From assembly GCF_949628265.1 (NCBI RefSeq), contig NC_088787.1:2160501-2224500 (forward strand): 64,000 nt of DNA, read 5' to 3'. The notes beneath the pieces are model-generated. The model saw nothing but the letters and a program-made list of their open reading frames with translations, searched no databases and had not been told where the DNA came from. Shown piece after piece: positions 9,188-63,410 of this stretch. The first letter of the stretch is position 1, and each line of letters starts with the position of its first letter. The translations under genes were made by a program, and so were the position numbers. This DNA comes from Cloeon dipterum (lineage: Eukaryota > Arthropoda > Insecta > Ephemeroptera > Baetidae).

Positions 9188-11047
9188 CTACAAGTGGACA
9201 TCAGCGATTGTAGTTTGCATTGATGTAGAAGGAACGGGATCGATGATTTCCGTGTCGTGTGGTTGAATTTCGCGGTTGATAAGAGGCTCTTTGCACATTT
9301 GCTCGCACTCTTTCTTGGTTTTGGCAATCGTGTCTTGCGTGCGCTTCATCTTCCGAAACCAATAGATTTGGGATGCGATGGAGAAGATGCAGAAAACGTT
9401 CCAGCAGGACAAAACGGTGTTCAAAATGAGCAGACTTTGGTGTGTGGCGTCGTCGCTGTTGCATGTTTTATTTTCTTTGTCTTTCCCACTATCAAACGTT
9501 GGAGTTGTTGTGGTTGTGATAAATTCTGAAACAATTGTAATATGGGATCAAATTTTGAGTCTGCTTTCGTTCTCACTGCTCTGCGGTTAAACTGGAAATA
9601 GATTACCTGTTGAGATATTGTAGAGATGTGGCTTTACACTGACTTCAGCTCTTTGTAGTCTATACTTCGGCTCTCCACTTTCGTAAAACACCATCATCCC
9701 CAGAGCGTCCCAGACGAGCTCAAGGCACAAGTAAACGGCCAAGAGCCCAGTTTTCCAGGCTAAAACATACACAAAAAAGAATTATTATGATAAAAAACAA
9801 TATATGTAGCGAAATTCTAACGGATGATTTTTCATAATTAATTGAAATTTGATCGAATTGAGAAAAAAGAATTAAAGACTCTTCAAAGTCCCGCAAAAAA
9901 TTCAAATTTACAGTTAAGCTTGAATTAAATTATATAATTTGGAAATGTGTATATACCACATAAAAACGTTGCTCCTCAAGTTCCTGTGAAATTTTCCAAG
10001 TCGACGTGTAGTTTTTCCCATAAAAGGCGGCATAGACTGTTCCAGTATTGTCGATCAACATTCGGTAGGGCTCTGCAGTCAATGTTCTATTTATTTTTGG
10101 ATTCACATGTCGAATTTCGCTCTGAAGATCAGCCACAGGAATAGAATACAAAGCAGTGGAGTTGTATTTTCCAAGGTAGATCTGTCTTGGATTTTCCTGA
10201 GGAGAATAAAGCGCTATTGACACCCATAATTCTTTCCTCTTCTGCATCAGCCACGATTTTTCCTCTTTCAAGCTAAACACAAGGATGTCCTCGATTATCC
10301 GGCGCGCAATATATGCAAACCATCCATTTGTTGTCTCCTCCAGCACCAGATCATGCATTTGATTCCCAAAGTCAGAAGAAAATCGATGCACATGATCGAT
10401 CTCGTCTTTATTGCTGGTGAGGTTAAAAATCCAAAGTTTTGCGGGACAATTAGAATCTCCACCGTCAAGAACCCACTGCCGCCCAATGACGTCAACTTAT
10501 CCAGCCCTTTTGATGCTTGGATCGAGTCACATTTTCTAGATTCCTGCAACCGAGCATTAAAAAATCTTTTTAATAAATATAAATATATTTTCCCTTATTT
10601 ATTAAAAGTATTGCAATTTTTGGAAAAAAGCTTTTAAAGTCGAGTTCTTAGAATATATAACAGAAGATGCAAGGAAAATATAGAACATTTTCTTCCGAAC
10701 GATGGTTATGATTAACTTACGAGATGCTTCTCCCACGAAGGGAACGGTGCAAGTTTTGGAGGCGCAGAAGGCGAACTGTTTATTGGTAGCCACACAAGAG
10801 TCACGGGAATACCAAAACTATATACTGCCAGGCTTAGAAACAGCCTGTTGTCAAAAACTGCCATGTATCGAGGTTCAATATTTCTAGGCATAAATTTATT
10901 GTCATTCACGGCATTTGATCTTTGCTCCGCTGACGGCCACACGTAGTCCATTTCATCCCAGGTGAAGACGGTGGTGAAGTTGATGGCATTGGAGAAAGAG
11001 AAAGCGAGCAGAAATGTCCCGATTAAGAATAAGGAAGTCATGTTCAT
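9188..11047 (-). pseudogene. Membrane-anchored Yellow/MRJP paralog with two frameshifts
   Basis: Four exons: 10721-11047 (signal peptide, MDYVWPSAEQRS, PRNIEPRYMAVF, PVTLVWLP), 9957-10543 (WVLDGG, CPAKLWIFNL, MHDLVLEE, PYRMLIDN, TVYAAFYGKNY), 9607-9759 and 9188-9525. The last exon encodes a Thr-rich stalk, a membrane helix (ILNTVLSCWNVFCIFSIASQ), a basic RKMKR stop-transfer and a cytoplasmic tail of about 50 residues without the tyrosine motifs of the 54-63 kb genes. Two frame disruptions are seen. Exon 2 has an extra TA after GGGCTGGA compared with the copy at 2765-2939. Exon 3 switches frame between SSSGTLWG and the PKYRLQRA block, consistent with one lost base, which would also restore the phase-1 junction used by the paralogs. 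It could be a recent pseudogene, or an intact gene with assembly errors. Homopolymer slippage is not an obvious cause of the TA insertion. Confidence 0.75.
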
Positions 11048-23600: not shown

Positions 23601-26176
23601 GAAAAGGGAAAATTAAGGAAAAAAAGAACCAGCAGGGTCATCCCCGCAAGCGTCAGAAACGCCGGCGGGCACGTCCCTGCTGGAAATTAAAAAGAAAAGG
23701 GAAAATTAAGGAAAAAAAGAACCAGCAGGGTCATCCCCGCAAGCGTCAGAAACGCCGGCGGGCACGTCCCTGCTGGAAATTAAAAGGAAAAGGGAAAATT
23801 GAGGAAAAAAGAACCAGCAAGGTCATCCCCGCAAGCGTCAGAAACGCCGGCGGGCACGTCCCTGCTGGAAATTAAAAGGAAAAGGGAAAATTAAGGAAAA
23901 AAATAACCAGCAAGGTCATCCCCGCAAGCGTCAGAAACGCCGGCGGGCACGTCGCTGCTGGAAATTAAAAGGAAAAGGGAAAATTAAGGAAAAAAATAAC
24001 CAGCAAGGTCATCCCCGCAAGCGTCAGAAACGCCGGCGGGCACGTCCCTGCTGGAAATTAAAAGGAAAAGGGAAAATTGAGGAAAAAAGAACCAGCAAGG
24101 TCATCCCCGCAAGCGTCAGAAACGCCGGCGGGCACGTCCCTGCTGGAAATTAAAAGGAAAAGGGAAAATTAAGGAAAAAAATAACCAGCAAGGTCATCCC
24201 CGCAAGCGTCAGAAACGCCGGCGGGCACGTCCCTGCTGGAAATTTAAAGGAAAAGGGAAAATTAAGGAAAAAAATAACCAGCAAGGTCATCCCCGCAAGC
24301 GTCAGAAACGCCGGCGGGCACGTCCCTGCTGGAAATTAAAAGGAAAAGGGAAAATTGAGGAAAAAATAACCAGCAAGGTCATCCCCGCAAGCGTCAGAAA
24401 CGCCGGCGGGCACGTCCCTGCTGGAAATTAAAAGGAAAAGGGAAAATTAAGGAAAAAAATAACCAGCAAGGTCATCCCCGCAAGCGTCAGAAACGCCGGC
24501 GGGCACGTCCCTGCTGGAAATTAAAAGGAAAAGGGAAAATTAAGGAAAAAAATAACCAGCAAGGTCATCCCCGCAAGCGTCAGAAACGCCGGCGGGCACG
24601 TCCCTGCTGGAAATTTAAAGGAAAAGGGAAAATTAAGGAAAAAAATAACCAGCAAGGTCATCCCCGCAAGCGTCAGAAACGCCGGCGGGCACGTCCCTGC
24701 TGGAAATTAAAAGGAAAAGGGAAAATTGAGGAAAAAATAACCAGCAAGGTCATCCCCGCAAGCGTCAGAAACGCCGGCGGGCACGTCCCTGCTGGAAATT
24801 AAAAGGAAAAGGGAAAATTAAGGAAAAAAATAACCAGCAAGGGCATCCCCGCAAGCGTCAGAAACGCCGGCGGGCACGTCCCTGCTGGAAATTAAAAGGA
24901 AAAGGGAAAATTAAGGAAAAAAATAACCAGCAAGGTCATCCCCGCAAGCGTCAGAAACGCCGGCGGGCACGTCCCTGCTGGAATTTTAAAGGAAAAGGGA
25001 AAATTAAGGAAAAAAATAACCAGCAAGGTCATCCCCGCAAGCGTCAGAAACGCCGGCGGGCACGTCCCTGCTGGAAATTAAAAGGAAAAGGGAAAATTGA
25101 GGAAAAAAGAACCAGCAAGGTCATCCCCGCAAGCGTCAGAAACGCCGGCGGGCACGTCCCTGCTGGAAATTAAATGGAAAAGGGAAAAAGAAGGGAAAAA
25201 GAACCAGCAGGGTCATCCCCGCAAGCGTCAGAAACGCCGGCGGGCACGTCCCTGCTGGAAATTAAAAAGAAAAGGGAAAATTAAGGGAAAAAGAACCAGC
25301 AAGGTCATCCCCGCAAGCGTCAGAAACGCCGGCGGGCACGTCCCTGCTGGAAATTAAAAAGAAAAGGGAAAATTAAGGGAAAAAGAACCAGCAAGGTCAT
25401 CCCCGCAAGCGTCAGAAACGCCGGCGGGCACGTCCCTGCTGCAAATTAAAAAGAAAAGGGAAAATTAAGGGAAAAAGAACCAGCAAGGTCATCCCCGCAA
25501 GCGTCAGAAACGCCGGCGGGCACGTCCCTGCTGCAAATTAAAAAGAAAAGGGAAAAAGAAGGGAAAAAGAACCAGCAGGGTCATCCCCGCAAGCGTCAGA
25601 AACGCCGGCGGGCACGTCCCTGCTGGAAATTAAATGGAAAAGGGAAAAAGAAGGGAAAAAGAACCAGCAGGGTCATCCCCGCAAGCGTCAGAAACGCCGG
25701 CGGGCACGTCCCTGCTGGAAATTAAATGGAAAAGGGAAAAAGAAGGGAAAAAGAACCAGCAAGGTCATCCCCGCAAGCGTCAGAAACGCCGGCGGGCACG
25801 TCCCTGCTGGAAATTAAATGGAAAAGGGAAAAAGAAGGGAAAAAGAACCAGCAAGGTCATCCCCGCAAGCGTCAGAAACGCCGGCGGGCACGTCCCTGCT
25901 GGAAATTAAAAAGAAAAGGGAAAATTAAGGGAAAAAGAACCAGCAAGGTCATCCCCGCAAGCGTCAGAAACGCCGGCGGGCACGTCCCTGCTGGAAATTA
26001 AAAGGAAAAGGGAAAAAGAAGGGAAAAAGAACCAGCAGGGTCATCCCCGCAAGCGTCAGAAACGCCGGCGGGCACGTCCCTGCTGGAAATTAAAAAGAAA
26101 AGGGAAAATTAAGGGAAAAAGAACCAGCAAGGTCATCCCCGCAAGCGTCAGAAACGCCGGCGGGCACGACCCTGCT
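14644..26176. repeat. Minisatellite array 2 (about 125 units of about 92 bp)
   Basis: The unit starts CCAGCA(A/G)GGTCATCCCCGC, passes AAGCGTCAGAAACG and CCGGCGGGCACG, ends TCCCTGCTGG and is followed by AAATTAAAA and a tail of A and G. Nested inverted arms (CCAGCAGGG/CCCTGCTGG and CCCGC/GCGGG) allow a stem-loop of about 55 nt per unit. The period is 92 (for example 15841 to 15933), with some shorter units lacking the AATTAAGG part of the tail. Higher-order structure is visible: a four-unit block marked by AAATTTAAAGG recurs at about 24241, 24610 and 24983, and a block with TGGTAATTAAAAGG near 21300-21800 recurs near 23320-23750. The first unit (14644-14700) is the array-1 type. The short open frames here are a by-product of the repeat. 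Confidence 0.95.
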
Positions 26177-26194
26177 GAGAAAGGAATGAAAAAA

Positions 26195-37696: not shown

Positions 37697-40600
37697 TTCC
37701 CAGCAGTGGGATCCTACTCGTGCCTGTGGCGCGGCTGGGAATACCCTGCTGTTAACTTTTCTATTTTCCTTTCAATTCCTTTCCCTTTAAATTCCTTCCC
37801 CGTTTAATTCCCAGTAGTGGGATCCTGGCCGTGCCTGTGGCGCGGCTGGGAATACCCTGCTGTTAACTTTTCCATTTTCCTTTCAATTCCTTTCCCAATT
37901 AATTCCCAGTAGTGGGATCCTGGCCGTGCCTGTGGCGCGGCTGGGAATACCCTGCTGTTAACTATTTCATTTTCCTTTCAATTCCTTTTCCTTTTAATTC
38001 CCAGTAGTGGGATCCTGGCCGTGCCTGTGGCGCGGCTGGGAATACCCTGCTGTTAACCTTTTCCATTTTCCTTTCAATTCCTTTCCCAATTAATTCCCAG
38101 TAGTGGGATCCTGGCCGTGCCTGTGGCGCGGCTGGGAATACCCTGCTGTTAACTATTCCATTTTCCTTTCAATTCCTTTCCCAATTAATTCCCAGTAGTG
38201 GGATCCTGGCCGTGCCTGTGGCGCGGCTGGGAATACCCTGCTGTTAACTATTCCATTTTCCTTTCAATTCCTTTCCCAATTAATTCCCAGTAGTGGGATC
38301 CTGGCCGTGCCTGTGGCGCGGCTGGGAATACCCTGCTGTTAACTATTTCATTTTCCTTTAAATTCCTTTTCCTTTTAATTCCCAGTAGTGGGATCCTGGC
38401 CGTGCCTGTGGCGCGGCTGGGAATACCCTGCTGTTAACCTTTTCCATTTTCCTTTCAATTCCTTTCCCAATTAATTCCCAGTAGTGGGATCCTGGCCGTG
38501 CCTGTGGTGCGGCTGGGAATACCCTGCTGTTAACCTTTTCCATTTTCCTTTCAATTCCTTTCCCAATTAATTCCCAGTAGTGGGATCCTGGCCGTGCCTG
38601 TGGCGCGGCTGGGAATACCCTGCTGTTAACTTTTCCATTTTCCTTTCAATTCCTTTTCCTTTTAATTCCCAGTAGTGGGATCCTGGCCGTGCCTGTGGCG
38701 CGGCTGGGAATACCCTGCTGTTAACTATTTCATTTTCCTTTAAATTCCTTTTCCTTTTAATTCCCAGTAGTGGGATCCTGGCCGTGCCTGTGGTGCGGCT
38801 GGGAATACCCTGCTGTTAACTTTTCCATTTTCCTTTCAATTCCTTTTCCTTTTAATTCCCAGTAGTGGGATCCTGGCCGTGCCTGTGGCGCGGCTGGGAA
38901 TACCCTGCTGTTAACTTTTCCATTTTCCTTTCAATTCCTTTCCCAATTAATTCCCAGTAGTGGGATCCTGGCCGTGCCTGTGGCGCGGCTGGGAATACCC
39001 TGCTGTTAACTATTTCATTTTCCTTTCAATTCCTTTTCCTTTTAATTCCCAGTAGTGGGATCCTGGCCGTGCCTGTGGTGCGGCTGGGAATACCCTGCTG
39101 TTAACTATTTCATTTTCCTTTCAATTCCTTTTCCTTTTAATTCCCAGTAGTGGGATCCTGGCCGTGCCTGTGGCGCGGCTGGGAATACCCTGCTGTTATC
39201 TTTTCCTTTTTCCTTTTATTTCCTTTCCCTTTAAATTCCTTCCCCTTTTAAATCCCAGTAGTGGGATCCTGGCCGTGCCTGTGGTGCGGCTGGGAATACC
39301 CTGCTGTTAACCTTTTCCATTTTCCTTTCAGTTCCTTTTCCTTTTAATTCCCAGTAGTGGGATCCTGGCCGTGCCTGTGGTGCGGCTGGGAATACCCTGC
39401 TGTTATCTTTTCCTTTTTCCTTTTATTTCCTTTCCCTTTAAATTCCTTCCCCTTTTAATTCCCAGTAGTGGGATCCTGGCCGTGCCTGTGGTGCGGCTGG
39501 GAATACCCTGCTGTTAACCTTTTCCATTTTCCTTTCAATTCCTTTCCCAATTAATTCCCAGTAGTGGGATCCTGGCCGTGCCTGTGGCGCGGCTGGGAAT
39601 ACCCTGCTGTTAACTTTTCCATTTTCCTTTCAATTCCTTTTCCTTTTAATTCCCAGTAGTGGGATCCTGGCCGTGCCTGTGGCGCGGCTGGGAATACCCT
39701 GCTGTTAACTTTTCCATTTTCCTTTCAATTCCTTTCCCAATTAATTCCCAGTAGTGGGATCCTGGCCGTGCCTGTGGCGCGGCTGGGAATACCCTGCTGT
39801 TAACTTTTCCATTTTCCTTTCAATTCCTTTTCCTTTTAATTCCCAGTAGTGGGATCCTGGCCGTGCCTGTGGCGCGGCTGGGAATACCCTGCTGTTAACT
39901 TTTCCATTTTCCTTTCAATTCCTTTTCCTTTTAATTCCCAGTAGTGGGATCCTGGCCGTGCCTGTGGCGCGGCTGGGAATACCCTGCTGTTAACTTTTCC
40001 ATTTTCCTTTCAATTCCTTTTCCTTTTAATTCCCAGTAGTGGGATCCTGGCCGTGCCTGTGGCGCGGCTGGGAATACCCTGCTGTTAACTTTTCCATTTT
40101 CCTTTCAATTCCTTTCCCAATTAATTCCCAGTAGTGGGATCCTGGCCGTGCCTGTGGCGCGGCTGGGAATACCCTGCTGTTAACTATTTCATTTTCCTTT
40201 CAATTCCTTTTCCTTTTAATTCCCAGTAGTGGGATCCTGGCCGTGCCTGTGGCGCGGCTGGGAATACCCTGCTGTTAACTATTTCATTTTCCTTTCAATT
40301 CCTTTTCCTTTTAATTCCCAGTAGTGGGATCCTGGCCGTGCCTGTGGCGCGGCTGGGAATACCCTGCTGTTAACCTTTTCCATTTTCCTTTCAATTCCTT
40401 TTCCTTTTAATTCCCAGTAGTGGGATCCTGGCCGTGCCTGTGGTGCGGCTGGGAATACCCTGCTGTTAACTATTTCATTTTCCTTTCAATTCCTTTTCCT
40501 TTTAATTCCCAGTAGTGGGATCCTGGCCGTGCCTGTGGCGCGGCTGGGAATACCCTGCTGTTAACCTTTTCCATTTTCCTTTCAATTCCTTTTCCTTTTA

Positions 40601-43600
40601 ATTCCCAGTAGTGGGATCCTGGCCGTGCCTGTGGCGCGGCTGGGAATACCCTGCTGTTATCTTTTCCTTTTTCCTTTTATTTCCTTTCCCTTTAAATTCC
40701 TTCCCCTTTTAAATCCCAGTAGTGGGATCCTGGCCGTGCCTGTGGTGCGGCTGGGAATACCCTGCTGTTAACCTTTTCCATTTTCCTTTCAGTTCCTTTT
40801 CCTTTTAATTCCCAGTAGTGGGATCCTGGCCGTGCCTGTGGTGCGGCTGGGAATACCCTGCTGTTATCTTTTCCTTTTTCCTTTTATTTCCTTTCCCTTT
40901 AAATTCCTTCCCCTTTTAATTCCCAGTAGTGGGATCCTGGCCGTGCCTGTGGTGCGGCTGGGAATACCCTGCTGTTAACCTTTTCCATTTTCCTTTCAAT
41001 TCCTTTCCCAATTAATTCCCAGTAGTGGGATCCTGGCCGTGCCTGTGGCGCGGCTGGGAATACCCTGCTGTTAACTTTTCCATTTTCCTTTCAATTCCTT
41101 TTCCTTTTAATTCCCAGTAGTGGGATCCTGGCCGTGCCTGTGGCGCGGCTGGGAATACCCTGCTGTTAACTATTTCATTTTCCTTTAAATTCCTTTTCCT
41201 TTTAATTCCCAGTAGTGGGATCCTGGCCGTGCCTGTGGTGCGGCTGGGAATACCCTGCTGTTAACTTTTCCATTTTCCTTTCAATTCCTTTTCCTTTTAA
41301 TTCCCAGTAGTGGGATCCTGGCCGTGCCTGTGGCGCGGCTGGGAATACCCTGCTGTTAACTTTTCCATTTTCCTTTCAATTCCTTTCCCAATTAATTCCC
41401 AGTAGTGGGATCCTGGCCGTGCCTGTGGCGCGGCTGGGAATACCCTGCTGTTAACTATTTCATTTTCCTTTCAATTCCTTTTCCTTTTAATTCCCAGTAG
41501 TGGGATCCTGGCCGTGCCTGTGGTGCGGCTGGGAATACCCTGCTGTTAACTATTTCATTTTCCTTTCAATTCCTTTTCCTTTTAATTCCCAGTAGTGGGA
41601 TCCTGGCCGTGCCTGTGGCGCGGCTGGGAATACCCTGCTGTTATCTTTTCCTTTTTCCTTTTATTTCCTTTCCCTTTAAATTCCTTCCCCTTTTAAATCC
41701 CAGTAGTGGGATCCTGGCCGTGCCTGTGGTGCGGCTGGGAATACCCTGCTGTTAACCTTTTCCATTTTCCTTTCAATTCCTTTTCCTTTTAATTCCCAGT
41801 AGTGGGATCCTGGCCGTGCCTGTGGTGCGGCTGGGAATACCCTGCTGTTAACCTTTTCCATTTTCCTTTCAATTCCTTTTCCTTTTAATTCCCAGTAGTG
41901 GGATCCTGGCCGTGCCTATGGCGCGGCTGGGAATACCCTGCTGTTAACTATTCCATTTTCCTTTCAATTCCTTTCCCAATTAATTCCCAGTAGTGGGATC
42001 CTGGCCGTGCCTGTGGCGCGGCTGGGAATACCCTGCTGTTAACTTTTCCATTTTCCTTTCAATTCCTTTCCCAATTAATTCCCAGTAGTGGGATCCTGGC
42101 CGTGCCTGTGGCGCGGCTGGGAATACCCTGCTGTTTTCTTTTCCATTTTCCTTTCAATTCCTTTCCCAATTAATTCCCAGTAGTGGGATCCTGGCCGTGC
42201 CTGTGGTGCGGCTGGGAATACCCTGCTTTTAACTATTCCATTTTCCTTTCAATTCCTTTCCCAATTAATTCCCAGTAGTGGGATCCTGGCCGTGCCTGTG
42301 GCGCGGCTGGGAATACCCTGCTGTTAACTTTTCTATTTTCCTTTCAATTCCTTTCCCAATTAATTCCCAGTAGTGGGATCCTGGCCGTGCCTGTGGCGCG
42401 GCTGGGAATACCCTGCTGTTAACTATTCCATTTTCCTTTCAATTCCTTTCCCAATTAATTCCCAGTAGTGGGATCCTGGCCGTGCCTGTGGCGCGGCTGG
42501 GAATACCCTGCTGTTAACTATTCCATTTTCCTTTCAATTCCTTTCCCAATTAATTCCCAGTAGTGGGATCCTGGCCGTGCCTGTGGTGCGGCTGGGAATA
42601 CCCTGCTGTTAACCTTTTCCATTTTCCTTTCAATTCCTTTTCCTTTTAATTCCCAGTAGTGGGATCCTGGCCGTGCCTGTGGCGCGGCTGGGAATACCCT
42701 GCTGTTAACTATTCCATTTTCCTTTCAATTCCTTTCCCAATTAATTCCCAGTAGTGGGATCCTGGCCGTGCCTGTGGTGCGGCTGGGAATACCCTGCTGT
42801 TAACTATTTCATTTTCCTTTAAATTCCTTTCCCAATTAATTCCCAGTAGTGGGATCCTGGCCGTGCCTGTGGCGCGGCTGGGAATACCCTGCTGTTAACT
42901 ATTTCATTTTCCTTTCAATTCCTTTCCCAATTAATTCCCAGTAGTGGGATCCTGGCCGTGCCTGTGGCGCGGCTGGGAATACCCTGCTGTTAACTTTTCC
43001 ATTTTCCTTTCAATTCCTTTTCCTTTTAATTCCCAGTAGTGGGATCCTGGCCGTGCCTGTGGCGCGGCTGGGAATACCCTGCTGTTAACTATTTCATTTT
43101 CCTTTAAATTCCTTTTCCTTTTAATTCCCAGTAGTGGGATCCTGGCCGTGCCTGTGGCGCGGCTGGGAATACCCTGCTGTTAACCTTTTCCATTTTCCTT
43201 TCAATTCCTTTTCCTTTTAATTCCCAGTAGTGGGATCCTGGCCGTGCCTGTGGCGCGGCTGGGAATACCCTGCTGTTACCTTTTCCATTTTCCTTTCAAT
43301 TCCTTTTCCTTTTAATTCCCAGTAGTGGGATCATGGCCGTGCCTGTGGCGCGGCTGGGAATACCCTGCTGTTAACTATTTCATTTTCCTTTAAATTCCTT
43401 TTCCTTTTAATTCCCAGTAGTGGGATCCTGGCCGTGCCTGTGGTGCGGCTGGGAATACCCTGCTGTTAACTATTTCATTTTCCTTTAAATTCCTTTTCCT
43501 TTTAATTCCCAGTAGTGGGATCCTGGCCGTGCCTGTGGCGCGGCTGGGAATACCCTGCTGTTAACTATTTCATTTTCCTTTAAATTCCTTTTCCTTTTAA

Positions 43601-45515
43601 TTCCCAGTAGTGGGATCCTGGCCGTGCCTGTGGCGCGGCTGGGAATACCCTGCTGTTAACTATTTCATTTTCCTTTAAATTCCTTTTCCTTTTAATTCCC
43701 AGTAGTGGGATCCTGGCCGTGCCTGTGGCGCGGCTGGGAATACCCTGCTGTTAACTATTTCATTTTCCTTTAAATTCCTTTTCCTTTTAATTCCCAGTAG
43801 TGGGATCCTGGCCGTGCCTGTGGCGCGGCTGGGAATACCCTGCTGTTAACTATTTCATTTTCCTTTAAATTCCTTTTCCTTTTAATTCCCAGTAGTGGGA
43901 TCCTGGCCGTGCCTGTGGCGCGGCTGGGAATACCCTGCTGTTAACTATTTCATTTTCCTTTAAATTCCTTTTCCTTTTAATTCCCAGTAGTGGGATCCTG
44001 GCCGTGCCTGTGGCGCGGCTGGGAATACCCTGCTGTTAACTATTTCATTTTCCTTTAAATTCCTTCTCCTTTTAATTCCCAGTAGTGGGATCCTGGCCGT
44101 GCCTGTGGCGCGGCTGGGAATACCCTGCTGTTAACTATTTCATTTTCCTTTAAATTCCTTTTCCTTTTAATTCCCAGTAGTGGGATCCTGGCCGTGCCTG
44201 TGGCGCGGCTGGGAATACCCTGCTGTTAACTATTTCATTTTCCTTTAAATTCCTTTTCCTTTTAATTCCCAGTAGTGGGATCCTGGCCGTGCCTGTGGCG
44301 CGGCTGGGAATACCCTGCTGTTAACTATTCCATTTTCCTTTAAATTCCTTTTCCTTTTAATTCCCAGTAGTGGGATCCTGGCCGTGCCTGTGGCGCGGCT
44401 GGGAATACCCTGCTGTTAACTATTTCATTTTCCTTTAAATTCCTTTTCCTTTTAATTCCCAGTAGTGGGATCCTGGCCGTGCCTGTGGCGCGGCTGGGAA
44501 TACCCTGCTGTTAACTTTTCTATTTTCCTTTCAATTCCTTTCCCAATTAATTCCCAGTAGTGGGATCCTGGCCGTGCCTGTGGCGCGGCTGGGAATACCC
44601 TGCTGTTAACTATTCCATTTTCCTTTCAATTCCTTTCCCAATTAATTCCCAGTAGTGGGATCCTGGCCGTGCCTGTGGTGCGGCTGGGAATACCCTGCTG
44701 TTAACCTTTTCCATTTTCCTTTAAATTCCTTTTCCTTTTAATTCCCAGTAGTGGGATCCTGGCCGTGCCTGTGGCGCGGCTGGGAATACCCTGCTGTTTT
44801 CTTTTCCATTTTCCTTTCAATTCCTTTCCCAATTAATTCCCAGTAGTGGGATCCTGGCCGTGCCTGTGGCGCGGCTGGGAATACCCTGCTGTTAACTATT
44901 TCATTTTCCTTAAAATTCCTTTCCCAATTAGTTCCCAGTAGTGGGATCCTGGCCGTGCCTGTGGCGCGGCTGGGAATACCCTGCTGTTAACCTTTTCCAT
45001 TTTCCTTTAAATTCCTTTCCCAATTAATTCCCAGTAGTGGGATCCTGGCCGTGCCTGTGGCGCGGCTGGGAATACCCTGCTGTTAACTATTTCATTTTCC
45101 TTAAAATTCCTTTCCCAATTAATTCCCAGTAGTGGGATCCTGGCCGTGCCTGTGGCGCGGCTGGGAATACCCTGCTGTTATCTTTTCCATTTTCCTTTCA
45201 ATTCCTTTCCCAATTAATTCCCAGTAGTTGGATCCTGGCCGTGCCTTTGGTGCGGCTGGGAATACCCTGCTGTTTTCTTTTCCATTTTCCTTTCAATTCC
45301 TTTCCCAATTAATTCCCAGTAGTGGGATCCTGGCCGTGCCTGTGGCGCGGCTGGGAATACCCTGCTGTTATCTTTTCCTTTTTCCTTTTAATTCCTTTCC
45401 CTTTTAATTCCCAGCAGTGGGATCTAACTCGCGCCTGAGGTGCGAGTGGGAATACCCTGCTTTTATCTTTTCCATTTTCCTTTAAATTCCTTTCCCAATT
45501 TAATTCCCAACAGTG
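37697..45515. repeat. Minisatellite array 3 (about 83 units of 94-95 bp)
   Basis: Unit: TTCCCAGTAGTGGGATCCTG, GCCGTGCCTGTGG(C/T)GCGGC, TGGGAATACCCTGCTG, then TTAAC and a pyrimidine-rich stretch of about 40 bases. TTCCCAG and CTGGGAA are inverted arms. Read on the minus strand, a unit begins CAGCAGGGT and has CTGGGAATTAA followed by A/G-rich sequence, the same plan as arrays 1 and 2. End units are the most diverged (37697 and 45405 have CCAGCAGTGGGATC with other changes), and the centre is homogeneous. A higher-order block marked by TTATCTTTTCCTTTTTCC recurs at about 39196/39406, 40656/40866 and 41641. Confidence 0.95.
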
Positions 45516-54896: not shown

Positions 54897-57256
54897 ATGA
54901 ATCATCCTATCTTCTTTGTCATCATTTTGCTCCGCCTTTTGGCCGCCGCTGCCAACCTCACTCAAGTCTTCGAGTGGCCTGATGGATTGGATTTCAAGTG
55001 GCCTTCCGAGGTGAACAGGGCACAGGCCTTGCAAGCTGGAACTTACAAACCAGAGAATATTGAACCTTGTTACATGGCTGTGTTCGGAAAAAGGATCTTC
55101 CTGAGCCTTTATAAAGATAATGGCATTCCGGCGAGTCTGGTGTCTTTGCCGACGAGCAGCGCGTCCTCTGCGTCCCCGAAGCTCACTCCATTTCCCTCGT
55201 TGGACAAACATGTAAGTGCGTATAAGGTAGAGATTAACAATCAGATTGAATAATATGCACTCAGGGAAAACAGTGTTGTCGAATTTTAGTTATTTTTCTA
55301 CTATCATTAAATGGGCAACAACACTCTGCAACTTGAATTTTCTGAACTTCACGTAGTCAGGATCAACGCAAAATATTTTTAAACTCCTTTCAAGGAGATG
55401 ATAGTCCAATAATGTGTGTCTCATGGGAATTTGAAAAAAGTACTGAATTAAAGGTCGTCAGAAGTCTTCTTGAAAAAATAAAAATTAGTTTAGAAAATTC
55501 ATTTTTCTCAAGAAATAGTGCCAAAAGTGAAAATTCGATGTAGATTTATTCTTTAAAATCGCAACAAATGCTTCTTGCAGGAAGACGGAAACTGCGAAAA
55601 AATCCAGTCTGCAAGCGGACTGCAAATGGATGCCACTGGAAAGCTGTGGGTGCTGGACAGCGGTAGCAACAAATGCAATTCAAAAATCTGGACATTCGAC
55701 CTGGCCAACTACGATTACATGAAACTAATTCACCAGTTTTCTTTTCAAAAAATGATGGATGACTTGGTGATTGATGAAACAAGTAACGGAACCTTTGCCT
55801 TCATCGCGGTGCGGGGTGGACAAAACATTGTCGTGTTTAGTTTGGAAAAAAGAAGATCTTGGATAGTGGACACGCCAGGATTACATGTTTTTTCTTTTGC
55901 CCTGTCCCCTAAGGAGGAACCAAGACGACAGCTCTACATCAGCAAATACATCTCCACTGAACTGTATTCAATTTCCGTTGCTGCACTTCGCAACGGAATT
56001 CAAACTGCAAATCCGAAACTAATTGGTAGATGGACAGCAGTACCAAATATTATGCAGATGGGCAACCACGGGACTATGTATGCCACCTTTTGGTGGAAGA
56101 ATTATATACTATCCTGGAACACTTCCCAGCCATTTGAAGAGCAACGTTTTCTTCAGGTAACCAATTTAAATATAAAATTTTTGATTTTGTTATTATTACT
56201 GCATGGTCAATATTTTGATTTGAAGAGTGATGTTTAAGGATCATATATAGCTCCAATTTTAACCTTTGCACTTTGCTAAAATTACAACAGCCTGATACTT
56301 TTTTTAGGTTCGAGAACTGACTACTAGTAGGCCGTTTATTTTTGTCTTGGACTCGTTGGGTAACTTTTGGATGATTGAGCTTAATAAAACAGCGACGAAT
56401 CCAAGGGTCAGACTACTAAAGGCTGTGGCCGGTGCGAATAAGCCATTCATTTTCGAGGCCTTACCAGGTAAGCGTTTGCTTGGAACAAAAGACAATACTT
56501 TTTTGATGCCAAAAATACCCTTCTCGTCAATTTTTTCGCATTTAAAGCAAAGGCAAAGAGCACTTTAATAATAACTAGTAAAATTCAAAAGCCGGTTTTT
56601 ATTTTAGTTACGCTAATATCTATTCCAATCCCCACTAATATGCCTGTTTTACCATGACAGAACCATCCGCGGCCGAATCTGTTAGTGTTTGTGAGGAAAC
56701 TTCCACACCCGAGATGCACCAATATCGGCTGTTACTCATCATTCTGATCTGCACTAACGGACTCAGCGTCGTCTTCTTGAGTTTGATCATTCTCTGGCTC
56801 ATCCTGAGACAGACGAGGAACAATTGCCTTTCGCAAAACACCAACGAGGCCCAGCAAATGTCCGTTTTCCCCGACGAGCCGGCCGAATACCACGAAGTCC
56901 AAGATGATAATTCGAGAAGTGCCGCCACACCTTCCGTTCCGGCCGAGTACGATTACGTCAGCCCCGTAGAAGGACTGTACGAAGAAGTCAAATACGGCCA
57001 GATCGTGGCCACGCCCCCTGCTCCTAGTCTCTACGAGCGGCCGATTTGTCTCAGCCCGGAATTGTCGAAAAGAGTGAGAGCAATGCCTGAGAGGCCGAGG
57101 ACGTTCGAGGATTTTGGAGAGGCGCCTCGTCCTCCAGTCGAGGACGATGCTCAACAGGAACCTCTGTACGATGACGTTGCACCGGCCACTCCCACGACAC
57201 CATCTTGCGGAGACACTACTTTTGAGTCGGCGCAGTACCTGCAAATCCTGCCATAA
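54897..57256 (+). CDS. Membrane-anchored Yellow/MRJP protein with tyrosine-rich cytoplasmic tail, 548 aa
   Basis: Exons 54897-55211, 55581-56156, 56308-56467 and 56661-57256; all junction phases agree. Residues 1-20 are a signal peptide. Residues about 21-350 are a Yellow/MRJP domain with FKWPSEVNRAQAL, PENIEPCYMAVFG, LWVLDSGSNKCNSKIWTFDL, DDLVIDE, FALSP, STELYSI, MYATFWWKNY and FIFVLDSLGNFW. Yellow family members are normally secreted and end near here. Exon 4 adds a short stalk, a membrane helix (about 374-399, FLSLIILWLIL), basic RQTRNN, and a tail of about 149 residues. Tyrosines at 427, 447, 457, 462, 520 and 543 sit in YxxV/I contexts (YHEV, YDYV, YEEV, YGQI, YDDV, YLQI); Tyr475 is in SLYERP. 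EVKYGQI fits an ITIM-like pattern, and YxxV/I also fits AP-2 endocytic signals. Function is inferred: a cell-surface receptor or anchored ligand. Confidence 0.88.
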
Positions 57257-57385
57257 GCAACATAAATATATATGATCTCTGTTACTTGTATTTTTTTATA
57301 AATCACGCCGCGTGTGTAACGATTGGTCGAGTGTAAAATAGTGCGACTATAATGCGCATGGCGAAGAGTGTGATATAGGCTTACC

Positions 57386-57460
57386 ATGGAGGAATTCATC
57401 TTTGCCGTCGCTGACATCATTTCAAGCATCGCCAATCATCAAGATCTTCAGACGCTAATT
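57386..57460 (+). CDS. Possible first coding exon of an unidentified gene (25 codons)
   Basis: The ATG at 57386 opens MEEFIFAVADIISSIANHQD and runs to an ATT|GTAAGT donor at 57461. Upstream is a GC-rich stretch (CACGCCGCGTGTG, ATGCGCATGG). No second exon could be linked. The second duplication unit does not keep this exon after 63410, which argues against an essential role. Low confidence. Confidence 0.25.
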
Positions 57461-58319
57461 GTAAGTGTCATTATTCAAAACTCGTGTGCGCTTATTTCGA
57501 AAATTAACTTTTTTTAAAGACCTATGTACTTATTCCGCTAATTTGTTTACCCTATATGTATTTAGAATATCAATTTTATTGTTAATTGATTTAATAATAA
57601 CTCTTCTATAATTCAATTGTTTAATTTATTGGTACACCAACAAAAGCAAACTTATAATTTTAAGAGCATCGTCTATCTCCTGCGCCTCAATCAGTTTGAT
57701 AGCTACCCCGCCTCTTTTGCCTCGCCGCAGTTACAGTAAGAATTGACTTTTTACTACCAAAGTCTCGTCTGAGTCAACATGAACTCAATAGCGTAATTTA
57801 CGTGCAAGTCATGACGAATCTGACGGAGTGTATAGTTTTTGCAAATTCTGATGATTCAATTTTTCTACCGCTCACAATTGGCTGAATAGACGAGGAAATC
57901 GAAAATATTTTTGCTACAGTGTCTTCATGGCCCCGCCTCCAAGGTCGTCGAAGGCTGAGAAAAATACCCAATTTTGTCAGAAACGCAAAGCGCTTTTAAT
58001 AATGACCACGATTGGGCTCAAGCTGCTCCGCAGCCACTCGGTGAGCTTTTATTAGTAAAGGGAAGTGCAGAGTAGATCATAGGTTAAAATAAAACAATAA
58101 TCAGAGATCTATAAATAATGAGCTTTGATCGATCAAATATTGAATTGCTCGATTTGTGGTAAAAATTCTTCCTGGTCTTTTGTTGCGACCGACGTTTAAG
58201 TCCCGGTTTTTGTCGCATGATTTTGCGGTTAGGCTAGCTTCTATTTTAGCCATAGCTTATCGACCTCTGACGCAAAACACATACGCGTGTATCCTGTTTG
58301 AAAATAACCTTAGTTAATT
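57461..58319. other. 3' flank of unit 1 and start of unit 2, non-coding
   Basis: The 3' flank of the first gene is matched at 63610-63800. From about 58120 the upstream region of the second gene begins (TGATCGATCAAATATTGAAT). No exon is recognised. Confidence 0.5.
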
Positions 58320-60533
58320 CCCTGCAAGAAAAATGATGTCAGTGACGTGAAAATGACGAAAAATTTTGTATTTTCAAAAGGCTTTAAATTTTGATTTTGA
58401 ACAACTAAAAACAAGTTTTGTTGGTTTTCTATTGAATTTTGAGCAAATTTGGAAAATTTTCACATTCCTTCAATGACGTCACTGAGACATCACTGTGATA
58501 TCACTCACGTCACGGTTGCACTCCCGAAGAGACGAGGAATGAAAATGATGTCAAAATGATATCATATTGACATACCCACGGTGACCAAACGTTTTAATAT
58601 TTTTCCGTTGATATTCTAAAGAAATCAATATAATATCTCTAAAATTTTCCAATTTTGGAAAAAATCAAAAAATTTAAAAATTAAAAAATATTTTTTTTGT
58701 CATTTTTTCATACTTTTTTAAATTATATTATTGCAAATGGGGCCTAAAATTCAGGTGTGCAGGGTCACGATTCGATGTGATTTCAAAGTGACGTCAAAGT
58801 GACGTCAAAGTGACGTCAAAGTGATATCAATATGATATCAATATGACATGCTCAGCGTGATGATTTTTTGAAATTCTGGGGATGCGCGTGATATCAATGT
58901 GACATCAATGTGATGTCCCAAAAGAATTTGAAACAAAAATTATGAAATTAATTAATTAATTAATTTAAATGTTAATGATCAGCAAAGATTTCATATTTTT
59001 TTGTTTAAAATTCTTTTTGGGACATCACATTGATGTCACATTGATATCACGCGCATCCCCAGAATTTCAAAAAATCATCACGCTGAGCATGTCATATTGA
59101 TATCACTTTGACGTCACTTTGACATCACATCGAATCGTGACCCTGCACACCTGAATTGTAGGCCCCATTTGCAATAATGCAATTTAAAAAAGTATGAAAA
59201 AATGACAAAAAAATATTTTTTAATTTTTAAATTTTTTGAATTTTTCCAAAATTGGAAAATTTTAGAAATATTATATTGATTTCTTTAGAATATCAACGGA
59301 AAAATATTAAAACGTTTGGTCACCGTGGGTATGTCAATATGATATCATTTTGACATCATTTTCATTCCTCGTGTCTTCGGAAGTGCAATCGTGACGTGAG
59401 TGATATCACAGTGATGTCTCAGTGACGTCATTGGAGGGATGAGGAAATTTTCCAAATTTGCTCAAAATTCAATGGAAAACCAACAAAACTTGTTTTTAGT
59501 TGTTCAAAATAAAAATCGTGACGTGAGTGATATCACAGTGACGTCACAGTGACGTCATTAAAGGAATGGGAAATTTTCCAAAGTTGCTCAAATTTCAATG
59601 GAAAACCAACAAAACTTGTTTTTAGTTGTTCAAAATAAAAATTTAAATTGAAAATACAATTTTTTGTCATTTTTACGTCACTAGCATCATTTTTCTTGCA
59701 CTTAAGTGCAATTGTGACGCGAGTGATATCAAGGTGATGTCACAGTGACGTCATTGCAGGTATGGAAAATTTAATGCATGAACAAGGAAATCAGTAAATA
59801 TTTTTATTTTATAAATTGGATAAAACTCCATGTTTTTGATTGGGTTGAAACGCAAATAATTTGCGATGGCTGGGAGATTAAGATTTTTAAAATAAAAGTG
59901 ACAAGCGTGACGGGGCTACTTTTTCCGCTGATGCTCTTAACGGTGGAGATTCCTTACACTCAGAATTATATTGTATGCGATGTATGTGACAATAAAATAT
60001 AATTCATATGTGTGTTCTTCGTTCCTAATCAAAATATTAATTGAATTTTCCAGGAAAAAATATTACTGTGATATCATATTGATATCACCAGGGTGACGTC
60101 AAATTGACGTCACTAAATGTCCGTCACAATGGGATCATATTGATATCATTATGATATCACGACCAAAAAATTTTTCCCAGAAAATTATTTTTATTGCATT
60201 TTTAAAACTTGAGGTTGAAAATGCTATTAAAATGATTTAAAGAAAATTTTCTGGGGAAAATTTTTTGGTCAAGATATCACCTCAAGTGACGTCAATATGA
60301 CGTCATATTGACGTCACTCCAGGTTGGAGCTCGGAATACGGATCCAAAAACTGTCAGTTTTGAAAATGCTATTAAAATAATAGTATTTGGGGAAAATTTT
60401 TTGGTCGTGATATCATAATGATATCAATATGATCCAATTGTGACGGACATTAAGTGACGTCAATATGACGTCACCCGGGTGATATCATGTGATATCAATA
60501 TGACGTCACAGTGATATTTTTTTTCTTGCAGGG
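58320..60533. mobile_element. Large foldback element with repeated TGACGTCA and TGATATCA motifs
   Basis: It begins CCCTGCAAGAAAAATGATGT and ends TTTTTTTCTTGCAGGG. TTAA lies directly after the right end and two bases before the left end, suggesting a TTAA target site as used by piggyBac-type elements. Two palindromes are nested inside: about 58322-59700, centred near 58965, and about 60055-60520. The arms are studded with GTGACGTCA, TGATATCA and related words (CRE-like and EcoRV-like sites), for example 58790-58860. A short open frame at 59778-60002 has no recognisable domain. No transposase is present, so it is non-autonomous. It is absent from the matching position in unit 1 (near 54280). 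Confidence 0.75.
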
Positions 60534-60859
60534 TTAACCCTATTACTTGTTCCTTGCTTAGCGAAATTTTATAAAGATGGTTGCTGTTTTCTTAAAATGT
60601 ACATCGAAAATTTGATGTGACGTCGATTGTGTTCTTCCGTGCAATAAAAGCTTACATCATTATCAAAGACCTCGGAAAAAGCGTTGAAATTGTGTTTTGT
60701 TTAAGTTTAGCATTTTGATATTTTCCAGTTTCCAGCAATGCTCTGCAGTTTCCTTGCTTGGTGCGCAGAACTCCGACATATTGCAAAAAAAAAACGTTGT
60801 TTATCGCCTTCTGCGTAGTGCCTTTATCAAAATCTATGATAGAGCTAGGTTAAATAGTT

Positions 60860-60960
60860 CCGGGTTGGCAGCTATTAAAGGCGAGCTAATTGCTTGTAAA
60901 GGCCACTCATCTTTCTGCGACAAAGCTGCAGTTTCGCCTCCGTCTTTACCCAGCGAACAG
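60860..60960 (+). promoter_or_regulatory. Promoter and leader exon of the second intact Yellow gene
   Basis: CCGGGTTGGCAGCTATTAAAGG near 60859-60881 corresponds to the TATA region of the first gene. The leader exon ends at GAACAG|GTTCGT (60960), with its acceptor TTTTTCAG at about 61145. The foldback element ends about 330 bases upstream. Confidence 0.5.
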
Positions 60961-61163
60961 GTTCGTATTTCTTTAAAGCACGTTGTACACTCTTTGGTCT
61001 GTTAATGACCATGACCAGGCGCCCGTATCGACAATTCAAGATAATTTACGGGCACCTCTGAGGTCAATTAATAGGCCAATGAGTGCGTATACAACAGAAA
61101 TGTTTAGTTGGCACTTAAAAACCTTTTCTTAACTTAATTTTTCAGTTTAGACACTTGCGAGTT

Positions 61164-63410
61164 ATGAATCCTTTCTTCTTCGTCATCTTTTTTCTCCGAC
61201 TTTCCTTGGCCACCGCCGCTGACTTCACTCAAGTCTTCCAGTGGAAAGAGTTGGATTTCAAGTGGCCGTCAGAGGCCAGCAGGGCACAGGCCTTGAAAGC
61301 TGGAACTTTCAAACCAGAGAATATTGAGCCTCGTTACATGGCTGTCCACGGAACAAGGCTCTTCCTGAGCCTTGAGAATAATAAAGGTATTCCGGTGACT
61401 CTGGTGTCTTTGCCGACGAGCAGTGAGTCCTCTGCGTCCCCGAAGCTCACTCCATTACCTGCGTTGAACATGCATGTAAGTGTATATTAAGTAGAGCGGA
61501 ACAATTAGATAAAATGCGCTTTTCTTGATTTTACGTGGTCAGAATTATATTTTTAATTTCCTTTAAAGCTAATGATAGTTCAATCATATGCGTGCGTGGC
61601 TTGTGATTATTTGAAACCTAAAAAATTACTGAATTGGGGTGGTCAGAGGACAACCTCTTGAAAAGGCAGCAATTAGATTTGAAAATTCGTTTTTTCTCTG
61701 GATATTGTGCCAAAAATGAAGATATTTGTTCAAAAACGCAACAAATGCTTTTTTGCAGGATGATGGAAACTGCAGTAAAATTCAGGCGGCAAGCGGACTG
61801 GAAATAGATTCCTTTAAAAGGCTGTGGGTTCTAGACAGCGGTAGCAACAAATGCAATGCAAAAATATGGACAATCAACCTGTCCAGCTACGATCACACTA
61901 AAATTATTCACAAGTTTTCTTTTCGAAAATTGTTGCAAAACTTGGTGATTGACGAGGCAAATAACGAAACCTGGGCCTACATCTCACAGGAAAATCAAAA
62001 AAACATTGTCGTCTATAGTTTAAAACAAAACCAATCTTGGACAGTAGACACGAGAGGAATACATGTTTTTTCCATTGCCCTGTCTCCTAAGGAGGAACAA
62101 CTCTACGTCAGCCAATACAATTCTACCGAACTGTATTCAATTTCCGTTGCCGCACTTCGCAATGGAAATCGAACTGTAAATCCAAAACTAATCGGAAAAT
62201 GGAGAGCAAGACCATATCGAATGCTGATGGACAACCGTGGGACCATGTATGCCGCATTTTTGGGGAAGAATTACATACAGTCGTGGAACACTTACCAGCC
62301 ATTTCAGGAGCAGCGTTTTCTTGATGTAAGTCACAGATTTCAAAATGGCATTTTTGTGGTTCTATTGATCAACTTTTTTACTATTTTAAATTGAAGAGTG
62401 GAACACGTGTTAACGGTCTCATATCTTCAATTTTAACCTTTGGTCTTAGCTAAAATTAAAGTGGAGTCCGCTACACTTTTTAGGTTGGTAAACTGGTTAC
62501 TGAATGGCCATTTACATTTGCCTTGGACGCGTCGGGAATCTTCTGGACGACTGAGCTTAATAAAACAGCTACTATTACGCCAAGGTACAGGCTATTGAGG
62601 GCTGCTGCGGTCGGTGCGGAGCCAGGTAACAATGGCAACTTTTCAATGCCTATATAATAATGAAAAAATCTCATTTTATTTTTAAATTTTTTTTAGCTTT
62701 TTGTAATGAGTGTTTCATAAGCCAGTTTAAATTAAAAAGAGCTCACTGCAGCTCACCGCATTAAAATTTTGACTAGTCATTCCAAGCACCACTACCAATA
62801 CCCAAAAGACCTAATAAATTGCCTTTTTACCATCACAGAACGGTCCTGCTTGTCTGCCGAGGAATCTTCCACGACCAAGGTGAAACAATATCGGCTGTTG
62901 AACACCATTCTGATCTGCTCTAACCTGTTCAGCGTCGTCTTGCTGGGTTTGATCATTCTTTGGCTCATCCTGAGACAGACGAGGAACAATTGCCTTCCGC
63001 AAAACACCAACGAAGCGCTGGAAATGTCTGCTGTTTACCTTGTTGAGCAAGATGAGCATGTGAGAAGTGCCGCCACAACTTCCGTTCCGGATGAGAACAA
63101 TGACGTTGACACCGCACCCGCAGAAGAAGGCCTGTACGAGGAAGTAAGATACGACCAGGTCGGTGTCTCGCTCCGTGCTCCAAGTCTCTACGAGCGGCCG
63201 ATTTGTCTCAGCCCGCGATCGGCGAGAAGAGTGAGACCGATGCCTGTGAGGCCGAGGACGTTCGAGACTTTTGGAGAGGCGCCTCCTGCTCCAATCGACG
63301 TCGGCTCTGCTCAACCGGAACATCTGTACGATGACGTTGCACCGGAAACTTCCTCGACACCATCATACGAGTCGGCGCAGTACCTGCCTATCCTGCCATA
63401 TGCACCATAA
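61164..63410 (+). CDS. Membrane-anchored Yellow/MRJP protein with tyrosine-rich cytoplasmic tail, 530 aa
   Basis: Exons 61164-61475, 61759-62325, 62484-62625 and 62839-63410, with the same phases (0, 0, 1) as the first gene. The ATG at 61164 is chosen because the signal peptide (MNPFFFVIFFLRLSLATAA) starts there. The Yellow domain has KWPSEASRAQALKAG, PENIEPRYMAVHG, LWVLDSGSNKCNAKIWTINL, NLVIDEANNETWAYI, IALSP, STELYSI, PYRMLMDNRGTMYAAFLGKN and FALDASGIFWTTE. The membrane helix is at about 360-385 (VVLLGLIILWLIL), followed by RQTRNN. The tail (386-530) has Tyr407, 440 (YEEV), 445 (YDQV), 458 (SLYERP), 504 (YDDV), 517, 522 (YLPI) and 528. Blocks LYEEV, SLYERPICLSP, RPRTFE-FGEAP, LYDDVAP and ESAQYL are shared with the first gene, while the sequence between them has diverged. 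That pattern suggests the motifs are under selection. Role inferred as for the first gene. Confidence 0.88.

Follow-up and report, generated by a model that had tools for sequence, protein, structure and literature searches.

Tandem Yellow/MRJP genes of the mayfly Cloeon dipterum with a predicted membrane helix and a tyrosine-motif tail

Structure of genes A and B and extent of their family

The window analysed here, a stretch of 64,000 nucleotides of the Cloeon dipterum chromosome C2 (contig NC_088787.1, positions 2,160,501 to 2,224,500), carries two intact tandem genes, designated A and B, in which a signal peptide and a Yellow/MRJP domain are joined to a predicted membrane helix and a tail containing tyrosine motifs (Table 1). 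Each gene is composed of four exons and has an open reading frame throughout, the products being 548 (A) and 530 (B) amino acids long. All introns are of the GT-AG type, with phases 0, 0 and 1 in each gene, and the helix and tail are encoded in both by a separate fourth exon joined in phase 1, as the initial annotation had proposed. The tails (149 residues in A and 145 in B) are predicted to be disordered and contain eight tyrosines each, of which six (A) and four (B) occur in a YxxV/I/L context, in line with the counts reported earlier.

Table 1. Coordinates (positions in the window) of genes A and B and of a third Yellow gene.
Feature	Position	Strand	Content
Gene A start codon	ATG at 54897	+	
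Gene A exon 1	54897..55211	+	signal peptide, start of Yellow domain, residues 1-105; hydrophobic N-terminus
Gene A exon 2	55581..56156	+	Yellow propeller core, residues 106-297
Gene A exon 3	56308..56467	+	final propeller blade; ends in phase 1
Gene A exon 4	56661..57256	+	stalk, membrane helix, tyrosine-motif tail, stop
Gene A membrane helix	56729..56806	+	about residues 374-399; predicted helix 370-407; coordinates derived from the exon start
Gene A cytosolic tail (predicted)	56807..57253	+	149 residues; YHEV, YDYV, YEEV, YGQI, YERP, YDDV, YLQI
Gene B exon 1	61164..61475	+	signal peptide, start of Yellow domain
Gene B exon 2	61759..62325	+	Yellow propeller core; 66% identity to gene A exon 2
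Gene B exon 3	62484..62625	+	final propeller blade; ends in phase 1
Gene B exon 4	62839..63410	+	stalk, helix (about 62901-62972), 145-residue tail, stop
Gene B tail motifs	within 62839..63410	+	YEEV, YDQV, YERP, YDDV, YLPI
Third Yellow gene	9191..11047	-	signal peptide exon, exon 2 across two frames, degenerate exon 3, membrane-helix exon

The Pfam family PF03022 matches gene A with 73.1 bits (curated cut-off 19.8), exon 2 of gene B matches the Yellow/MRJP family (C2:2222289), and the products are predicted to adopt the six-bladed propeller known from family members of solved structure. Members of this family are normally secreted, without an anchor or a tail, whereas exon 4 of A and B encodes a hydrophobic helix and a basic-flanked tail. 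The two genes are thus a predicted membrane variant built on the Yellow/MRJP domain. Exon 4 as a separate gene with a start of its own was looked for and rejected, because there is no conserved start (a methionine between the acceptor site and the helix occurs in just 5 of 28 close tails, gene A included) and because public models of six paralogs (P0003, P0005, P0068, P0079, P0089 and P0092) join the tail to the Yellow part.

The relatives of both genes were searched for in the whole genome (190,111,064 bases in 10 contigs), of which C2 makes up 37.46 Mb. The tail exon of gene A, used as a query, gave 115 matching places, all on C2; after two further tail queries and merging, 135 loci of the helix and tail exon were distinguished on this chromosome, and the second of the tail queries also gave seven matches on contigs C1 and C4. 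With exon 2 of gene A, 143 of the best 150 among 372 candidates were located on C2 (identity 51-100%). The Yellow core-exon loci of C2 number at least 195, a count in which some may be pseudogenes and which includes 54 places picked by hand, as not plainly duplicating the exon 2 places, from the listed part of 199 matches. The family occupies positions 0.34-7.44 Mb and 35.6-36.6 Mb, i.e., close to both chromosome ends.

Tail and Yellow exons often lie close together. A Yellow exon on the same strand lies within 3 kb upstream of 77 of the 135 tail loci and within 3 kb downstream of 28, while for 49 none of the identified places lies within 6 kb upstream. Below 5.4 Mb, 71 of 125 tail loci have a Yellow exon within 3 kb, versus a mean of 6.5 and a maximum of 16 in 500 rotations. 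An in-phase Yellow exon 3 (score at least 40) precedes 31 of 45 tail loci and six of ten additional ones, and a Ser/Thr-rich stalk ahead of the helix is encoded by some other paralogs (e.g., P0005, P0013 and P0021). Judged by these matching loci, A and B are members of a tandem, mayfly-expanded family and not an isolated pair. Three protein searches for relatives in other species returned 81, 2 and 92 proteins, all of them from C. dipterum, which does not in itself establish absence elsewhere; the searches with 81 and 92 proteins covered the best 8000 candidates, and the one with two proteins missed the tail-bearing P0003.

Two features of the family layout were observed in addition. The loci L058 (C2:1393175) and L035 (C2:1419274), 26 kb apart, encode identical protein tails, as would result from segmental duplication or gene conversion that happened very recently. 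Some public Cloeon models (P0001, P0082 and P0081) combine a Yellow domain with a second one or with an adjacent Band 7 domain, and may be neighbouring genes fused in an older assembly.

Tail motifs and the variable face of the propeller

Of 55 tail exons read, 46 entered the motif test; excluded were L029 (an exon call without a helix) and eight motif-free short tails (L045, L046 twice, and L048-L052). In these short-tailed paralogs the membrane helix is present and the chain ends ahead of the tyrosine motifs. Among the 273 tyrosines of the 46 tails, 153 occur as Y[DE]x[VP], versus 9.3 after shuffling, and the corresponding number for ectodomain tyrosines is 50 of 824. The YDxV form is found 90 times (1.33 after shuffling; 16 versus 0.31 in ten representatives) and in 41 of 54 tails when the short tails are counted and L029 is not. 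Strings of the Y..[VIL] type number 181 (44.7 after shuffling), and Y..P is weakly enriched (48 versus 33.3). At least three Y-D/E-x-V/P sites are present in 32 tails and at least four in 24, with four each in A and B. The predicted tail motifs fit the published consensus of the Nck SH2 domain, which matches Y-D/E-x-V/P and for which nephrin pY1193 is listed as PLpYDEV (PMC8187788). The full pattern pYDxV(AYST)x(DEC), given elsewhere for the Nck site (PMC2661883), occurs in 19 of the 46 tails; YxxP is described as the site of the Crk SH2 domain (PMC2689226).

In the 29 close tails, the tyrosine is retained most often in LYEEV (27 tails), LYERP (26), QYLKI (24) and LYDDV (22), followed by two EYDDV sites (19 and 18), and the best-conserved stretch is the FGEAPRPP block, which contains no tyrosine. 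The motifs YDDV, LYxEV or IYxxV recur in differing spacers in ten more tails (30-36% identity) and in four tails of another type, and both sets also retain a C-terminal YL(K/E/Q) or similar sequence; PYEVP is kept in the set of ten alone and not in the four-tail type. When the motifs were assigned to lettered classes, which we did after inspecting the tails, the order D-E-P-D-D-C was found in 14 of the 46 tails, i.e., five of the second set and nine of the close set, two of the latter being identical copies.

The ratio of nonsynonymous to synonymous substitution rates (dN/dS) was estimated for 91 pairs of 14 genes; its median is 0.47 in exons 2-3 and somewhat higher, 0.59, in exon 4. Gene conversion among the tails is suggested by their dS, which is below that of the ectodomain (0.39 versus 0.59).

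The loops of the propeller differ in variability between its two faces. In 58 aligned proteins, the mean loop entropy is 2.05 on the BC/DA face versus 1.02 on the AB/CD face (Mann-Whitney P 7.7e-5), and the same split is seen in the 23 proteins with a C-terminal helix (1.76 versus 1.00) and in the 35 without it (1.96 versus 0.86). The ratio of the proportions of nonsynonymous and synonymous differences (pN/pS) in 22 tail-linked genes is 0.95 for the BC/DA loops, 0.59 for the AB/CD loops and 0.52 for the strands, and none of 300 permutations of the loop labels reached the difference between the two faces. Pooled over eight overlapping close pairs, dN/dS is 1.07 for the top (BC/DA) face versus 0.66 for the rest, and it exceeds 1 in five of the eight. 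The order of the strands places the end of blade 6, with its last strand, on the AB/CD side, where the chain leaves toward the membrane, and therefore the variable BC/DA face should point outward, away from the membrane.

Possible function and its alternatives

The reading that we favour, and to which we attach even confidence, is that A and B belong to a large set of type I recognition receptors that expanded in the mayfly and have tails docking adaptors of the Nck/Crk type. With its variable face, each propeller would bind a ligand of its own, be it a small molecule, a microbial partner or one on a cell surface, and clustering would then allow a Src-family kinase to phosphorylate the tail. 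The Y-D/E-x-V/P sites would dock SH2 adaptors, namely Nck (Dock in Drosophila) and possibly the Crk type, which would link the receptor to actin, and the output would be a local cytoskeletal change serving, e.g., uptake, adhesion or contact recognition. The short-tail and tail-less paralogs might act as decoys, represent soluble forms, or be distinct Yellow proteins that are secreted. More tentatively, about a hundred clustered loci with long-tail, short-tail and soluble forms, a near-neutral-to-diversifying outward face and a nephrin-like tail leading to actin could constitute a diversified repertoire made from Yellow propellers and used in immunity, gamete recognition or self-recognition; we know of no counterpart of such a repertoire in other insects.

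Several observations weigh against the adaptor-docking reading. In the A-B pair, motif positions are not significantly more conserved than others (6 of 24 versus 38 of 111 changed; Fisher P 0.27), and the pair has a tail dN/dS of about 1.0 (0.200/0.194), with 0.56 in exons 2-3. Among the close tails, of which 25 of 29 were taken into the column analysis, identity is only mildly higher in motif columns (0.75) than elsewhere (0.67), pN as low as that of the motifs was obtained for 17 of 200 random blocks, and a first dN/dS comparison of motif columns with the other tail columns, of the kind that the initial annotation had proposed, gave no difference (0.62 versus 0.64), with pS lower in the motifs. 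Silent codon change at the tyrosines is uninformative and lends no support, because the conserved tyrosine codons are nearly all TAC. The motif strings of A and B are related to, yet different from, the commonest order, and the eight short tails stand outside the motif counts. As for the ectodomain, dN/dS of the top face is near 1, and positive selection, considered as an explanation, is suggestive only. The face bias is equally strong in the 35 proteins without a C-terminal helix; it is therefore no special property of the receptors and may be one of the Yellow propeller fold at large, the comparison having covered Cloeon Yellow proteins alone. The earlier claim that motifs were conserved while spacers diverged is not supported for the A-B pair and holds between subfamilies, where motifs and their order recur with differing spacers. 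It is on this enrichment and order across subfamilies, and not on the A-B pair, that the case for a putative tail function rests.

The main rival, possible though in our judgement unlikely, is that the proteins are endocytic clearance receptors, the Yxx-hydrophobic strings acting as adaptor-complex sorting signals through which ligands caught by the propeller would be taken up. The Yellow fold does include amine binders, such as LJM11 with its ligand tunnel (PMC5094789). The enrichment of Y..[VIL] strings in the 46 tails is likewise what such receptors would be expected to have. However, the +1 and +2 positions of these strings are mostly acidic and the +3 position is mostly V or P, at variance with the residue preferences of sorting signals; up to six sites per tail exceed what one sorting signal needs, and the YxxP sites are not sorting signals.

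Quite unlikely, in our estimate, is a partial use of the tail exon, by which intron retention or early transcript ends would yield a mostly secreted Yellow product and leave the tails to drift. The A-B tail dN/dS given above would agree with it, and neither A nor B has a public protein model (no match of at least 98% in the public protein sets searched, which also counts against the adaptor-docking reading). Moreover, the RefSeq model P0019, adjoining the tail locus L042, stops without the tail, and immediately ahead of 13 of 45 tail loci no exon 3 is recognisable. On the other hand, the tails are open in dozens of copies, their motifs are enriched across diverged subfamilies, and six public models contain the tail.

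A role as inhibitory or activating immune-type receptors, signalling through immunoreceptor tyrosine-based inhibitory or activation motifs (ITIM or ITAM), appears very unlikely. The family is clustered, with long and short tails, and the V-x-Y-x-x-(I/V) sequence that the initial annotation called ITIM-like is present in both A and B; its loose pattern was matched 39 times (10.8 after shuffling), somewhere in 30 of the 46 tails. Yet the claimed site (VKYxQ) keeps its tyrosine in 14 of the 29 close tails and is not a feature of the family, and the ITAM pattern Yxx(L/I)x6-12Yxx(L/I) had no match in the 46 tails. Of the initial interpretation, the ITIM label and the conservation of motifs within the pair were accordingly abandoned, and what is supported is a predicted single-pass receptor form of Yellow whose tyrosine-motif tail is encoded on a phase-1 exon.

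Drift in copy number, in which duplication and gene conversion near chromosome ends spread a fused gene without a role, is highly improbable: the location at both ends of the 37.46 Mb chromosome, the low tail dS (as conversion would give) and a probably decayed copy inside the window speak for it, but the median dN/dS values of the 91 pairs and the recurrent motif grammar speak against it.

Relation to described systems and remaining features of the window

Classically a family of pigmentation and secreted proteins, the Yellow proteins have their best-known expansion in the royal jelly proteins. Compared with the members of known structure (Aedes DCE, 9w1k; MRJP1, 5yyl; LJM11, 3q6k), the predicted mayfly products continue beyond the propeller with a membrane helix and then a tail bearing tyrosines. 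In one account, the typical DCE/yellow protein consists of a signal peptide and a single MRJP domain and is inferred to be extracellular, and two-domain MRJP forms are mentioned for molluscs and a few insects (PMC6678240). Nine yellow genes are reported for Diaphorina citri (PMC9631960), versus the at least 195 core-exon loci found on a single Cloeon chromosome.

The tails resemble those of nephrin and other Nck-docking receptors of the pYDxV type in having several Y-D-x-V sites, PLYDEV being letter-identical. The putative mayfly receptors differ in carrying a Yellow propeller instead of the immunoglobulin domains that form the nephrin ectodomain, and in constituting a large multigene family. 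As multi-site tyrosine substrates with YxxP they are also similar to p130Cas and DCBLD1/2, scaffolds of Crk/CrkL; however, each mayfly tail holds few YxxP sites, and the remaining parts are unrelated. Paired ITIM/ITAM families of the KIR/LILR type are alike in clustering, fast change and the occurrence of long-tail, short-tail and apparently soluble members, and differ in their ectodomain, the mayfly tails having no ITAM match and an unconserved ITIM.

Within the open-access literature, no paper on mayfly Yellow genes or on membrane-bound Yellow proteins was found among the hits displayed, and no described Yellow member with a signalling-type tail, as the initial annotation had supposed. Odorant-binding proteins and opsins are what the Cloeon genome paper draws attention to, and a term search of its main text returned neither "yellow" nor "royal jelly" (PMC7250882); in the searched text of later Cloeon papers, "yellow" occurs solely as a colour word. 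Yellow domain and SH2 motifs are known separately, and their union is apparently undescribed. If the receptor reading is true, a Yellow propeller can become a signalling ectodomain, and surface receptors unlike those described from flies form a large and diversified family in a winged insect of an early-branching lineage. The roughly two hundred gene models named "yellow-like" or "Bee-milk protein" should then not be taken as pigment enzymes.

A third Yellow gene of the window (PF03022, E 7.8e-11 at 9933-10496) has a tail without tyrosine motifs and is probably decayed, since its exon 2 lies in two frames. Ten other open reading frames of the window were compared with Pfam, the sole hit being this gene, and an Rfam scan of the window gave nothing at the gathering score. 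Two long satellite arrays are present, at 14657-26182 and 37776-45509, in which a 92-base unit is repeated about 125 times and a 95-base unit likewise forms arrays; the repeats account for the long open reading frames within them. Between genes A and B (about 58320-60540), a large fold-back was noticed by eye, containing inverted copies as well as numerous palindromes of TGACGTCA and TGATATCA, and this region is perhaps a mobile element.

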